Part shown: one piece after another, positions 9,996 to 56,646 of the stretch
Layout: each line of letters begins with the position of its first letter
How positions within the stretch are numbered: position 1 is the stretch's first letter
Assembly (NCBI GenBank): GCA_951812505.1
Contig: CATOSI010000001.1
Location: forward strand, 496,001 to 560,000
Direction: 5' to 3'
Origin: an uncultured Dehalococcoidia bacterium
Lineage (GTDB): Bacteria > Chloroflexota > Dehalococcoidia > Lucifugimonadales > UBA1123
Length of the DNA: 64,000 nt
Notes under the pieces: model-generated
The model's input: only the letters and a program-made list of their open reading frames with translations
What the model was told of the DNA's origin: nothing
Databases searched by the model: none
Translations under genes and position numbers: made by a program

Positions 9996-10622
9996 TTATG
10001 ACTCGCGGGTGTAGCGGACGAAGTTTTCGTATATCTTCAGTCCGACTGTGCCGCTTTTTTCGGGGTGGAACTGCACTGCCACAACCGAATCCCAGGCGGC
10101 GGCGCTGCAGAATTCGACGCCGTACTCGGTTGTTCCGGCTATCAGCGATGTGTCTTCAGGGTCGGCGTAGTAGCTGTGGACGAAGTAGAAGTGAGAGTTG
10201 TCCCGCACGCCGTCGAATACAGGATGCTCTTTTTTCAGGGAAACCTGGTTCCAGCCCATGTGCGGAATCTTGCGGCCTTCGGGCAGACGACGGCATGTGC
10301 CGGACACGATTCCGAGGCAGGGTTCTTCACCTTCTTCGGAGCTGTCAAGCAGGAGTTGAAGCCCGAGGCAGACACCCAGAAATGGTTTGCCGCCCTGTAT
10401 GAAGTCACGGATCGGCTCTACGAGTCCGCCGGAATGGAGGTGGCGCATAGAGGAATCGCAGGCTCCCTGGCCCGGGACTACGAGCGCGTCGGCGTTGGCG
10501 ATGCATTCGGGTGACGAGGTTATCTGGGCGCGGGCGTCGAATCTTTCGAGCGCCTTCTGGACGCTGCGTATGTTGCCGGCGTTGTAGTCCGCTATGGCGA
10601 TGGTGGGCGTGGGCATGGTCAT
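9996..10622 (-). CDS. hisH: Imidazole glycerol phosphate synthase subunit HisH
   Basis: DYNAGNIRSVQKAL, VPGQGA, GVCLGLQLL, VQFHPEKSG. Confidence 0.96.
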   Translation of the reverse strand: MTMPTPTIAIADYNAGNIRSVQKALERFDARAQITSSPECIANADALVVPGQGACDSSMRHLHSGGLVEPIRDFIQGGKPFLGVCLGLQLLLDSSEEGEEPCLGIVSGTCRRLPEGRKIPHMGWNQVSLKKEHPVFDGVRDNSHFYFVHSYYADPEDTSLIAGTTEYGVEFCSAAAWDSVVAVQFHPEKSGTVGLKIYENFVRYTRES

Positions 10623-11188
10623 TCAGCCTTCTCGGGGGGCTGCCCAGTGACGATTTCCATTGGCAGGCGGCGGTCTTCGTATCTGGCGAGCATGAAGAGC
10701 AGGTCGGAGAGCCTGTTGAGGTAGATCATGATCTGCGTGTTGGGAAGCATTCCCTCGTTTCGCAGCTCAATCACTCTGCGCTCCGCGGTGCGGGTCTGGG
10801 TCCGGGCGACGTCTATGGCGGCGGAACCCGGAGATGCGCCAGGTATAATGAAGTTGGGAGGCAGTTCGACAGCCTCGTTGAGTTCATCTATGAGCGCTTC
10901 GAGCTTGGCTACGTGGTCTTCGGAGATTATCTGGAAGCGCTCCAGCAGGTGATGGCGATTGGTTGTGTCGGTGGCTAGTTCGGCGCCAATCATGAACATC
11001 TCGCGCTGGACTTCGAGAAGGATTTCTTTCACATGGTCGTCTTCGGATAGCGCGCGGGCCAGTCCGATTGCGGAGACGGCGTGGTCGGTGGAGCCGTATG
11101 CCTCGGTGCGGATGTGCGCCTTGGACACGCGACCGCCGAACAGCAGGCCTGTTTCGCCTTCGTCTCCAGACTTGGTATATATCTTCAA
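10619..11188 (-). CDS. Cob(I)alamin adenosyltransferase, PduO type
   Basis: MKIYTKSGDEGETGLLFGGRVSK, R-rich core TRTAERRVIEL; overlaps hisH start. Confidence 0.93.
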   Translation of the reverse strand: MKIYTKSGDEGETGLLFGGRVSKAHIRTEAYGSTDHAVSAIGLARALSEDDHVKEILLEVQREMFMIGAELATDTTNRHHLLERFQIISEDHVAKLEALIDELNEAVELPPNFIIPGASPGSAAIDVARTQTRTAERRVIELRNEGMLPNTQIMIYLNRLSDLLFMLARYEDRRLPMEIVTGQPPEKAE

Positions 11189-11326: not shown

Positions 11327-11420
11327 TCGAGCCACAGGCAGCGCCGACTAACTTGATACAGGTTCTCGTGTCTGGCAGGGTGTTAGCGAAATTGGCGCTG
11401 AATGAATCCTGCCGGATGTC

Positions 11421-11560
11421 GGACGGATTCGCTGAGTCATATACCTCGATTTATAAAGCCACAGGTGGCGACAGGTGCGTTGACTGGTGACCAACAGGTG
11501 ATTAGAACACCAGAGATTCACCTGAGATCGCCTGAGTTTAGCTACATAAAAAATTTTTCA
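11421..11560 (+). repeat. Novel ~140 bp intergenic element with helically phased CAGGTG/CCTGAG arrays (copy 1)
   Basis: Inverted homologous copy at 55331-55470; identical repeat spacing in both copies. Confidence 0.85.
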
Positions 11561-11761
11561 TGAGACCGAAGTTCCGGTTGTATAATTTCGTATTTATGTA
11601 TGTGGACATTCAAAGTCATCGGCAGTCGGCGCTCCATCGTTAGTTTGTATGTTCGTATTATAGCGTAGATGGGATACTCATGTGTAGTTTTATGTGAAAC
11701 CGGAGTGAACTTTCCAAAGGCGCCAGATATGTGGATGTGGTTGGCAGCTGACGCTCGACGA

Positions 11762-11835: not shown

Positions 11836-12243
11836 TCAGACGCTCTTTACTTCGAGCCGACGGGTGTTGCCGGACTCCTGGCGTGGGATGGTTACGGTCA
11901 GGACGCCGTTCTCGTAGGTGGGTTCGGCCTTGTCGGCGTCAACGGAGTTGGGCAGGCGCAGGGAGCGGCTGAACCTACCGACTCGCCGCTCCCGGAGCAG
12001 ATAGTCGCCCTTCTCGATCTCGCTGTCGGCGGCGGTCTCGCCCTGGATGGTGAGCAATCGGTCCTCCAGCGTTACGCTGATGTCCTCGGGTTTGAGTCCG
12101 GGGAGGGAGGCTCGGATGACGACATCCTCTCCCTCGCTGACTACGTCAATGGGGATGGGCCAGAGTCCGCTCTCGAATGTTCCGAACCGGGATCGGTTGA
12201 ATGGTCTTACGTCTATGAATGGGTTCCATCTCTGAATTGCCAT
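11836..12243 (-). CDS. Hsp20/alpha-crystallin small heat shock protein
   Basis: RASLPGLKPEDISVTLEDRLLTIQGE...NGVLTVTIPR. Confidence 0.95.
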   Translation of the reverse strand: MAIQRWNPFIDVRPFNRSRFGTFESGLWPIPIDVVSEGEDVVIRASLPGLKPEDISVTLEDRLLTIQGETAADSEIEKGDYLLRERRVGRFSRSLRLPNSVDADKAEPTYENGVLTVTIPRQESGNTRRLEVKSV

Positions 12244-12415: not shown

Positions 12416-13297
12416 ATGGCGGATTACTACGACACACTCGGCATTCAGCGCGACGCGGACGAGAAGGACGTGCGTCGCGCCTTCAGGCGTCTTGCGCGGA
12501 AGTATCACCCGGACCTGAACAAGGACGACAAGGACGCGGAGGCCAGGTTCAAGGAGGTCAACGAGGCGTACGAGGTACTGTCGAACGCGGACAGCCGCAA
12601 GAAGTACGACACCTACGGCGACCAGTGGAAGGACGCGGACCGAATCGAGGAGCAACGTCGAGCCTCACGGTCGCCGTTCGACTTCACGGCGCACGGCTAC
12701 TACGATAACAGCGACCTGTTTTCCGGCTTTGAGGATTTATTCGGAGCAGGCGGCGGATTTCGAGATTTCGAGACGAGGCGCGCTCCGAGGAATGTGCGGA
12801 CCGAGACGACGGCCACGGTGTCGCTGGAGGAGGCTTACAGCGGTACGACGATCAACGCGAATCTGACGACAGGGGGCAGGGCACGGAGGTTCGAGGTCGA
12901 GATACCACCCGGAGTGGATAACGGGAGTTCCGTAAGGGTGACTCCGGAGAGCGGGACTGAGTTAATTTTCAGGGTGGCGGTTACTCCACACCCGCGGTTC
13001 AGACGACTGGGCGACGATCTCTACACGGACGTTCCGGTGGCGTTCGAGGACGCGATGCTGGGTGGGGAAGCGGAGGTTAGCACTCCCTCCGGTCGCCGGA
13101 TAGTAGTCACCATCCCGGAGAACAGCCAGAACGGACAGAACATCCGGCTGCGCGGTCTGGGGATGCCGACGCTGGGCTCACCGGAAAAGAAGGGAGACCT
13201 GTACGCGACGGTAAGGCCCGTGATGCCGAAGAGTCTGAGTGAGGAGCAGCGGGATCTGATAAGGCGGTTCCGGGAGTTGCGGTCTTCTACTCTATGA
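12416..13297 (+). CDS. DnaJ/CbpA-type co-chaperone lacking the zinc-finger domain
   Basis: [34 protein letters not shown]-domain with HPD; C-terminal DnaJ domain; no CxxCxGxG repeats. Confidence 0.93.
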
Positions 13298-52382: not shown

Positions 52383-52456
<74 letters not shown>

Positions 52457-55178: not shown

Positions 55179-55330
55179 AGTGCCCTCGCATTGCTGGCGT
55201 GTCCTATAAACGCCAACTCGTCTCTTTCTGTACTCTGGCCGACCAAGTGTGCTAAACTGTTCGCATGATGAACCCGTCTGGTACATACGAAACATAAGTC
55301 AGGACTTATCCATGAACCTCACGGGGCGGA

Positions 55331-55470
55331 AGAAAAATTTTTTATGTAGCTAAACTCAGGTCAACTCAGGTCAATCTCAGGTGTTCTAATCACCTGTTGC
55401 TCTCCTGTTGCCCTACCAGAAGCCACCTGTGCAATTATAAACCTGAATATATGAACTCCGCGAATCCGCC
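55331..55470 (-). repeat. Novel ~140 bp phased-repeat element (copy 2, inverted relative to copy 1)
   Basis: Reverse complement aligns with 11421-11560; CTCAGGTcaaCTCAGGTcaatCTCAGGTg...CACCTGTtg. Confidence 0.85.
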
Positions 55471-55494: not shown

Positions 55495-56646
55495 ATGAAG
55501 ATAACCGACATCAACGCGTTCGTCACCAAGCCCCCCGGCGCTTTCTCCAACTACGTCTTCGTCAAGGTCTCCACCGACGAGGGTATCGTAGGCTGGGGCG
55601 AATCGAGCATCGGAGCCACCTCCGTCGCCGCCGTCATAGAGGAGTTCGGCGCCGCGATCATCGGCAAGGATCCCTTCCGAATCGAAGAACACTGGCAGGA
55701 TATGTACCACCTCCACCACAACATCCGAGGAGGAGCGCTCCAGATGGCCGCCATATCCGGCATCGAGATAGCGCTCTGGGACATCAAGGGAAAGGCCCTG
55801 AACGTCCCCGTCTATGAACTTCTGGGCGGCGCGATGCGCGACAAGCTCTGGACCTACGGACGCTTTGACGGCGTTGATCCCGCCGCCGCCGTCGAGACCG
55901 CCATGTCCTTCGTCGAAGACGGCTACACCGCGCTCAAGGGAGACCCCTTCGGACACCAGGGCATCTTCACCTCCCCCGAGTCCGAACGCGATGCAATAGC
56001 CAAGGTCAAGGCCGTGCGCGAAGCCGTCGGCGACGACGTAGAACTCCTCGTCGAGGTTCACGGAAGGCTCACCCCCGCAGAGGCGATCAGGATAGGGGAG
56101 CAGCTAGAACCGTACCGCCCCTTCTTCTACGAGGAGCCTGTCCCACCGCAGAACATTGACGCAATGGTTCGCGTCGCGCAGGCAATCAACATCCCAATTG
56201 CCACCGGCGAGCGAATCTACACCAAGTGGGGATTCAAGGACCTGCTGGAAAAACAGGCGGTCGCGGTGGTGCAGCCCGACGTCTGCCATGCCGGGGGAAT
56301 CAGCGAACTCAAGAAGATAGCCGCCATGGCCGAGACTTACTACGTCGGTTTCGCGCCGCATAATCCCTACGGCCCGATCAACACAATGGCCGCCATTCAC
56401 GTTGATGCCTGCACCCCCAACTTCCTCATCCAGGAAGGCGGTCACGCACCCTGGTTCGACTCGATCATGACCGCCCCCTTCAAGCGCCAGACCGACGGCT
56501 ATTTCGACCTCCCGACCGAGCCCGGAATCGGTGTCGAAATAGACGAAGACGCCCTCATCGCCAACCCCCAGGGAATCCCCGAAACCGGAGGCGGATACAG
56601 AAGCCGCTTCACCATGCCCTCCCGACAGCAAAACCACTGGGTATAA
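55495..56646 (+). CDS. Enolase-superfamily enzyme (mandelate racemase/galactonate dehydratase-like)
   Basis: MKITDINAFVTKP; GIEIALWDIKGKALNVPVYELLGG; FYEEPVPPQN; QPDVCHAGGISELKKIAAMAE; FAPHNPYGP. Confidence 0.93.
   Translation: MKITDINAFVTKPPGAFSNYVFVKVSTDEGIVGWGESSIGATSVAAVIEEFGAAIIGKDPFRIEEHWQDMYHLHHNIRGGALQMAAISGIEIALWDIKGKALNVPVYELLGGAMRDKLWTYGRFDGVDPAAAVETAMSFVEDGYTALKGDPFGHQGIFTSPESERDAIAKVKAVREAVGDDVELLVEVHGRLTPAEAIRIGEQLEPYRPFFYEEPVPPQNIDAMVRVAQAINIPIATGERIYTKWGFKDLLEKQAVAVVQPDVCHAGGISELKKIAAMAETYYVGFAPHNPYGPINTMAAIHVDACTPNFLIQEGGHAPWFDSIMTAPFKRQTDGYFDLPTEPGIGVEIDEDALIANPQGIPETGGGYRSRFTMPSRQQNHWV

Follow-up and report, generated by a model that had tools for sequence, protein, structure and literature searches.

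The window examined here, a stretch of 64,000 nucleotides from an uncultured Dehalococcoidia bacterium, contains two copies of a dispersed element, each of which lies upstream of a gene and faces it (Table 1). Copy 1 precedes the gene for cobalamin adenosyltransferase, whose start codon is found 231 bp past the matched stretch of the copy. The - strand run downstream of copy 1 comprises cobO-hisH-hisA-hisF-hisI, and the copy is also adjoined by divergent genes, which encode an Hsp20-family protein (11836-12243, - strand) and a DnaJ-like protein (12416-13297, + strand). Copy 2 precedes the gene of a mandelate racemase/enolase-superfamily protein, and in the sister species the element is likewise present upstream of this gene (L016/L225, with proteins 96% identical). 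The sole Rfam match within the window is a tRNA gene (52383-52456, + strand).

On the + strand, copy 1 is composed of four CWGG cores (D4 to D1 in Table 1) followed by three CCWG cores (U3 to U1), spaced by 10, 12 and 11 bp and by 11 and 10 bp, exactly as in the original prediction, which had been made from the letters of the window and described seven phased, inverted half-sites. The inverted copy that it placed at 55331-55470 was found to have, on its own strand, the identical spacing (10, 12, 11 / 11, 10). After the CCWG cores of copy 1, positions 11537-11558 are occupied by the 22-base tail TTTAGCTACATAAAAAATTTTT, which has two matches in the window, both at the copies, and none in 100 shuffles; an arrangement of three phased CWGG cores followed by three phased CCWG cores is present at both copies and in 0 of 200 shuffled windows. 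The reading direction of the prediction had to be reversed, since the functional orientation, in which the element faces the downstream gene, is that of the opposite strand; this gene orientation is used for the element throughout.

Table 1. Positions of the element parts and of the downstream genes in the window
Feature	Position	Strand	Remark
Whole element, copy 1	11376..11726	-	limits approximate, from decayed TIRs: left relic 13/16, right 10/16 versus CAGGGCCTTTGCAAAGTC
Left TIR relic GCGCCTTTGGAAAGTT, copy 1	11708..11723	-	
-35-like hexamer TACACA, copy 1	11681..11686	-	18 bp before TATAAT
-10 hexamer TATAAT, copy 1	11657..11662	-	within GCTATAATA
AT box P1 (CATAAATACGAAATTATAC), copy 1	11580..11598	-	consensus of 40 copies
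A-tract GAAAAATTTTTT, copy 1	11548..11559	-	conserved column block in alignment A1
Unit U1, CAGG in gene orientation	11531..11534	-	CCWG core on the + strand
Unit U2, CAGG in gene orientation	11521..11524	-	CCWG core on the + strand
Unit U3, CTGG in gene orientation	11510..11513	-	CCWG core on the + strand
Unit D1, CCTG in gene orientation	11495..11498	-	CWGG core on the + strand
Unit D2, CCAG in gene orientation	11484..11487	-	CWGG core on the + strand
Unit D3, CCTG in gene orientation	11472..11475	-	CWGG core on the + strand
Unit D4, CCTG in gene orientation	11462..11465	-	CWGG core on the + strand
AT box P2 (TTTATAAATCGAGGTATATGAC), copy 1	11436..11457	-	P2 pattern ATAARYNNNNNTATATG
Right TIR relic, copy 1	11376..11393	-	decayed, 10/16 match
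Cobalamin adenosyltransferase gene, downstream of copy 1	10619..11188	-	Pfam Cob_adeno_trans 5.3e-52
Element core, copy 2 (A-tract, array, P2)	55331..55456	+	R1 match 104.7 bits
AT box P1, copy 2	55293..55311	+	
Array, copy 2	55357..55429	+	U (CWGG) cores 55357, 55367, 55378; D (CCWG) cores 55393, 55404, 55416, 55426
AT box P2, copy 2	55435..55456	+	start codon 41 nt after box
Mandelate racemase/enolase-superfamily gene, downstream of copy 2	55495..56646	+	383 aa

Copy number and architecture

The genome of the window (G000) is a 3.8-Mb draft of 6 contigs, in which a BLAST-type search with copy 1 identified 40 places. Further copies were found, as the original prediction had anticipated, when the genome and its relatives were searched with a sequence-only covariance model built from 48 copies (R1), which matches 96 places in G000 and 94 places in the sister species (G002). 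At E <= 0.01 the model matches neither G001 nor G003 (the latter a single contig), which represent two further species of the genus, nor any of four genomes of the family. The pattern of the AT box P2, ATAARYNNNNNTATATG, occurs 75 times in G000 and 71 times in G002, with 1 and 5 matches in the controls and none in six relatives, and finds copies that R1 misses; the copy number is a lower bound, at least ~100 in G000 and at least ~90 in G002. Among 250 genomes of the order, matches were confined to G000, G002 and one 1.1-kb contig in G079, which was probably misbinned from the G000/G002 lineage, and among 394 genomes of the class the element was matched only in its own genome. The lineage itself is presumably sponge-associated. 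A phage or plasmid origin was rejected, as phages, plasmids and viral contigs gave no match, and a match in Acidobacteria, which covers part of one arm only, was judged to be due to chance. The element is thus dispersed, as predicted, in at least ~100 copies, but the proposed length of ~140 bp corresponds only to the core of an element of ~320-350 bp.

Read toward the gene, the element has the order promoter, P1, A-tract, CWGG units, centre, inverted CCWG units and P2, followed by the gene, and the core typically begins 76 to 160 bp after the promoter motif GCTAYAATA. This motif is matched in at least 8 of 9 positions in 126 of 156 copies (versus 4% of shuffles), and TACACA is matched in 5-6 of 6 positions in 83 of the 156, mostly 18 bp before the -10 hexamer; the promoter predicted from these motifs would be sigma70-like. 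The AT boxes P1 (CATAAATnnnnATTTATG-like) and P2 (TATAAAY-N5-TATATGA) are alike, and have a 6-bp Xer-like centre reminiscent of attC/dif-like recombination sites. This identity was rejected, because the centres of P1 and P2 differ within one copy, so that recombination between them is not supported. A leader peptide was also rejected, since in a few copies compared by eye the stretch from P1 to the array has no conserved reading frame.

The CWGG arm usually contains 3 units of the form NNCWGGNN spaced by 10 and 11 bp, the centre is often a short palindrome, and the inverted arm usually contains 4 units 10-12 bp apart. The phasing is not random in the other copies either: in the 158 copies of the two genomes 280 of ~320 CWGG intervals measure 10 or 11 bp, and 425 of ~500 CCWG intervals measure 10-12 bp, while a shuffle control, run for the CWGG intervals only, gave about one interval at each of those distances. 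Seven is not a fixed number of units, however, as most copies have 2-4 units in one arm and 3-5 in the other, and units are gained or lost whole (e.g. L069 has two CWGG units, and extra CCWG units are present in L025, L030 and many G002 copies). The common scaffold is shared by several unit families, namely CAGGTG (to which the copies in the window belong), CAGGGC, CCACCTGG, AAACTGGT and CTGGG. In seven further copies (L214, L222, L232, L239, L242, L243 and L245) we observed another family, with AAACTGGT/ACCAGTTT units in a different order. The original prediction had described the phased array correctly, but had not recognized the promoter, the AT boxes P1 and P2, the terminal inverted repeats (TIRs), the orientation to the gene and the other unit families.

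Transposon ends and position relative to genes

The TIRs are ~18 bp long, and among 116 copies 23% of the left ends and 20% of the right ends match CAGGGCCTTTGCAAAGTC in at least 13 of 16 positions, as compared to 0% for shuffled patterns. In copy 2 no TIRs are recognizable, with scores equal to the background, whereas in copy 1 decayed relics remain, and the match of a similar copy (L006) to copy 1 ends near the same right limit. Exact duplications of 9 bp flank L203 (CGAAGTCAG) and L201 (GTGATAGCT), and near-exact ones, read from the TIR search output, flank L206, L193, L176, L191 and L061; the target-site duplications that the original prediction proposed to look for are thus found at other copies, but none was seen at the two copies in the window. 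We also found small MITEs (miniature inverted-repeat transposable elements) of 117-145 bp with the TIRs of the element and 9-bp repeats, exact at L258 (GAGGTCTCG). In these small forms (L257-L260) a palindrome, GTCATTCCCGCGAAGGCGGGAATCC, occupies the place where the array would be. The CAGGGC family has a uniform length of ~319 bp in G000, where it looks to be the youngest.

The element accordingly has the properties of a MITE: TIRs (decayed in most copies, those in the window included), a target duplication of fixed length (9 bp), and a short sequence without a transposase gene in at least 90 copies per genome. Of the outcomes that the original prediction had named as speaking against it, i.e. 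the lack of further copies, random spacing, or identity with a known transposon end or coding remnant, only a resemblance to a transposon was found, and no named element was matched. No autonomous partner or transposase was detected among the single-ended TIR matches inspected in the draft genome. Insertions of ~900 bp in two copies were considered as the full-length form and rejected, since they correspond to an IS5-type element with its own ends. This 885-bp insertion sequence, assigned to its family by eye, has ends GAGGGTGTCTGAGAAG and two ORFs. In L047 and L048 (G000 C1:435.5-436.4 kb and C1:607.0-607.9 kb) its insertion point in the array is identical to the base, so the array may be an insertion hot spot of this element.

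The relation to genes was analyzed with gene calls from a simple codon model and, for G000, with Pfam checks. None of the 158 catalogued cores overlaps a predicted gene, and the next gene downstream is co-directional in 148 of the 156 copies for which it was predicted, so that nearly all copies point at the start of a gene. Between tandem genes, where the orientation of the element is free, ~50 copies have the direction of the genes and 5 the opposite one. The 80 downstream genes of G000 represent 122 Pfam families with at most 3 genes per family; homologous promoter DNA hence precedes non-homologous genes, as expected of a mobile promoter. These genes include recA, lexA, uvrB, dinB, groES, nusA, rplI, hpf, pcm and pspA. 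P2 is at most 60 nt away from the start codon in 28 of 129 genes (10 nt in the case of dinB), so that there is hardly any space, or none, for a further promoter.

Conservation and turnover between the sister species

Among the downstream genes, 80 in G000 and 68 in G002, 27 are common to both species. In the orthologous upstream regions of five genomes, the element is present in G000 and G002 at recA, aroC, argC and an enoyl-CoA hydratase gene, and in G000 only at sucC and lysA, and no element was found in the regions read from G001, G003 and G005. The two species differ in unit family, with the young CAGGGC family in G000 and another one in G002, at nusA, pcm, an OsmC-like locus, a nucleoside hydrolase gene and an SDR gene; at the nucleoside hydrolase gene of G000 the CAGGGC copy has exact 9-bp duplications and orthologous flanks. 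Replacement and independent recruitment both fit these differences, which are small in number and are not pressed here.

For 19 genes preceded by copies of the same type in both species, the C/GG positions differ by 4.3%, the W position by 25%, the two bases adjacent to the core by 19%, and the spacers by 31.8%. The contrast between C/GG and spacers (odds ratio 0.095, p about 1e-29) is in part inflated, as the units were defined by their motif in G000 while the G002 copies were found by similarity, and in orthologous pairs the conservation of the entire array exceeds that of its surroundings only slightly. Spacers have nevertheless diverged while the phasing was kept, as the original prediction claimed, and the conserved core, helical spacing and free spacers agree with an operator array. 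Furthermore, of 108 copies with both ends at background level, 72 keep phased arrays in both arms.

These data bear directly on the main rival of the reading that we prefer (below), namely that the element is a selfish MITE, whose array would bind a transposase or accessory protein and thus serve transposition rather than the neighboring genes, and whose sense orientation would survive because an outward promoter directed back into genes is harmful. Such an element would have the TIRs and 9-bp duplications described above, would be restricted to intergenic regions, as every copy is, and would amplify its families separately in each species, as has happened here. Yet it would not be expected to preserve its arrays after its ends were lost, nor to show strong core constraint in the copies common to both species; moreover, gene pairs are often divergent, and the family at one and the same gene can differ from one species to the other. 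We consider this alternative rather improbable.

An action at the level of RNA, by a structured 5' leader, attenuator or regulatory RNA whose arms pair in a long hairpin, appears very unlikely to us. The arms are complementary, follow the promoter motif and have the orientation of the gene, but the consensus fold of 48 copies calculated with RNAalifold contains only 3 pairs (-0.49 kcal/mol), whole units are inserted or deleted in one arm only, and the element has no match in Rfam, in agreement with the earlier statement that it resembles no riboswitch. At the W position A and T are swapped without consistent covariation between the arms; among 12 arm-to-arm tests a single one, of U1 against D4, reached p = 0.006, on the basis of three cells. 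Thus, neither the conserved structure nor the covariation of a structured cis-regulatory RNA was found. In the minor groove of DNA, but not in RNA, A:T pairs resemble T:A pairs, so the interchange without matching of the arms is better explained by recognition of double-stranded DNA. A nucleoid-organizing or partition site, as initially proposed, or an enhancer-type one, that merely happens to be located in promoter regions is highly improbable: the phased array beside an A-tract and the many copies per genome would suit it, but the strict orientation to the next gene, the promoter motifs in each copy, the proximity of P2 to start codons and the absence from the congeners G001 and G003 argue against it, chromosome-organizing sites being usually conserved.

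A putative promoter/operator cassette

The best-supported reading of the array itself, judging from its conserved cores, free spacers, A/T interchange, changes by whole units and lack of conserved RNA structure, is the helically phased, cooperative binding array of the original prediction. A regulator operator and a non-autonomous mobile element, which had been offered as alternatives, both fit and appear to describe one object. We consider it probable that the element derives from a MITE and acts as a mobile promoter/operator cassette by which genes are wired to a putative DNA-binding protein. The ends, duplications, copy number, mobility, orientation bias, core constraint and promoter motifs come from the genomes themselves; from them we infer a course of events to which protein binding, transcription, regulation, the signal answered and the transposase are supplied by the model. 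A transposase that generates 9-bp duplications would have copied the non-autonomous element around the two sister genomes, each copy delivering an array placed between two AT-rich boxes, together with a predicted sigma70-like promoter directed toward the gene downstream. The CWGG half-sites lie on one face of the helix, inverted at the centre of the array, and an oligomerizing DNA-binding protein could fill the array from this dyad outward and so switch, i.e. block or help, transcription at the cassette promoter and/or at P2. Sense insertions that usefully placed a gene under this control would have been kept, and selection would have held the array while the TIRs decayed.

Short, regularly stepped sites in direct or inverted orientation, filled cooperatively, are known for ribbon-helix-helix and plasmid partition proteins (ParR, omega, MetJ). 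The array discussed here, known from its sequence, resembles these in the regular direct and inverted arrangement of short sites; it differs in that theirs are found at one or a few loci, whereas these arrays were spread by transposition. That transposable elements can rewire gene control has been amply documented in animals and plants, and to our knowledge such rewiring is known in bacteria mostly from single insertions or a few promoter-carrying MITEs.

Among such MITEs, the Correia elements of Neisseria carry TIRs and sigma70-like promoters, lie just upstream of genes and in some cases contain a site for the architectural protein IHF (PMC10969869). Our element is similarly short and non-autonomous, with TIRs and a predicted sigma70-like promoter upstream of genes, but its ends differ, its target duplication measures 9 bp, and its seven-unit phased inverted array comes in several unit families and remains conserved where the ends have decayed. 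BrickBuilt of Porphyromonas gingivalis is a strictly intergenic MITE with an internal tandem array and promoter activity, likened by its authors to mobile promoters (PMC4596501). Both elements are strictly intergenic and have arrays that change by whole units, with the promoter represented by motifs alone in our case; however, BrickBuilt has a 23-nt minisatellite without spacers, 19 copies and promoters in both directions (PMC4596501), while here ~4-bp cores one helical turn apart flank a dyad centre, in at least ~100 copies that point in one direction. The putative mobile promoters of Matus-Garcia et al. (2012), as cited in PMC4596501, are likewise related promoter DNA in front of unrelated genes of one genome; compared with that summary, the present element adds a visible mechanism of transposition (ends and 9-bp duplications) and a complex operator-like array. 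The open papers searched, a set that leaves out most subscription papers, contain no description of the element in this lineage.

What appears to be new is a conserved, helically phased and dyad-symmetric multi-unit array, present in several unit families at ~100 genes per genome and outlasting its transposon ends. A multi-site architecture of operator type has spread to ~100 genes, among them core genes for repair, translation and chaperones, which suggests that transposition brought a large part of both genomes under new control. With two close species that can be compared gene by gene, and two element-free congeners as the outgroup, the birth and turnover of a bacterial regulon become directly testable, and the several unit sequences on one fixed helical scaffold pose a new problem of DNA recognition by the putative binding protein. 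More speculatively, one MITE superfamily may have built, and may still be rebuilding, a global regulon by transposition, with each of the unit families (CAGGTG, CAGGGC, CCACCTGG, AAACTGGT and CTGGG) read by its own member of an array-filling protein family, and with genes such as recA, lexA, uvrB, dinB, nusA and groES movable between circuits through the turnover of cassettes from species to species; this extension we put forward only tentatively.

At some genes the cassette is accompanied by other control sequences. Native promoters are located between the element and recA and sucC, so the cassette promoter is not always needed. In L248 a CIRCE-like inverted repeat (TTAGCAGTC...GACTGCTAA) lies between the element and groES, where native heat-shock control may coexist with the cassette. 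Four genes of the SOS type (recA, lexA, uvrB and dinB) have the cassette. In the native recA promoter (L094, L095 and L097) a conserved box, GAACNNATGTATTTAC, is found just upstream of TGATATRCTC and is likely the LexA site of the genus.
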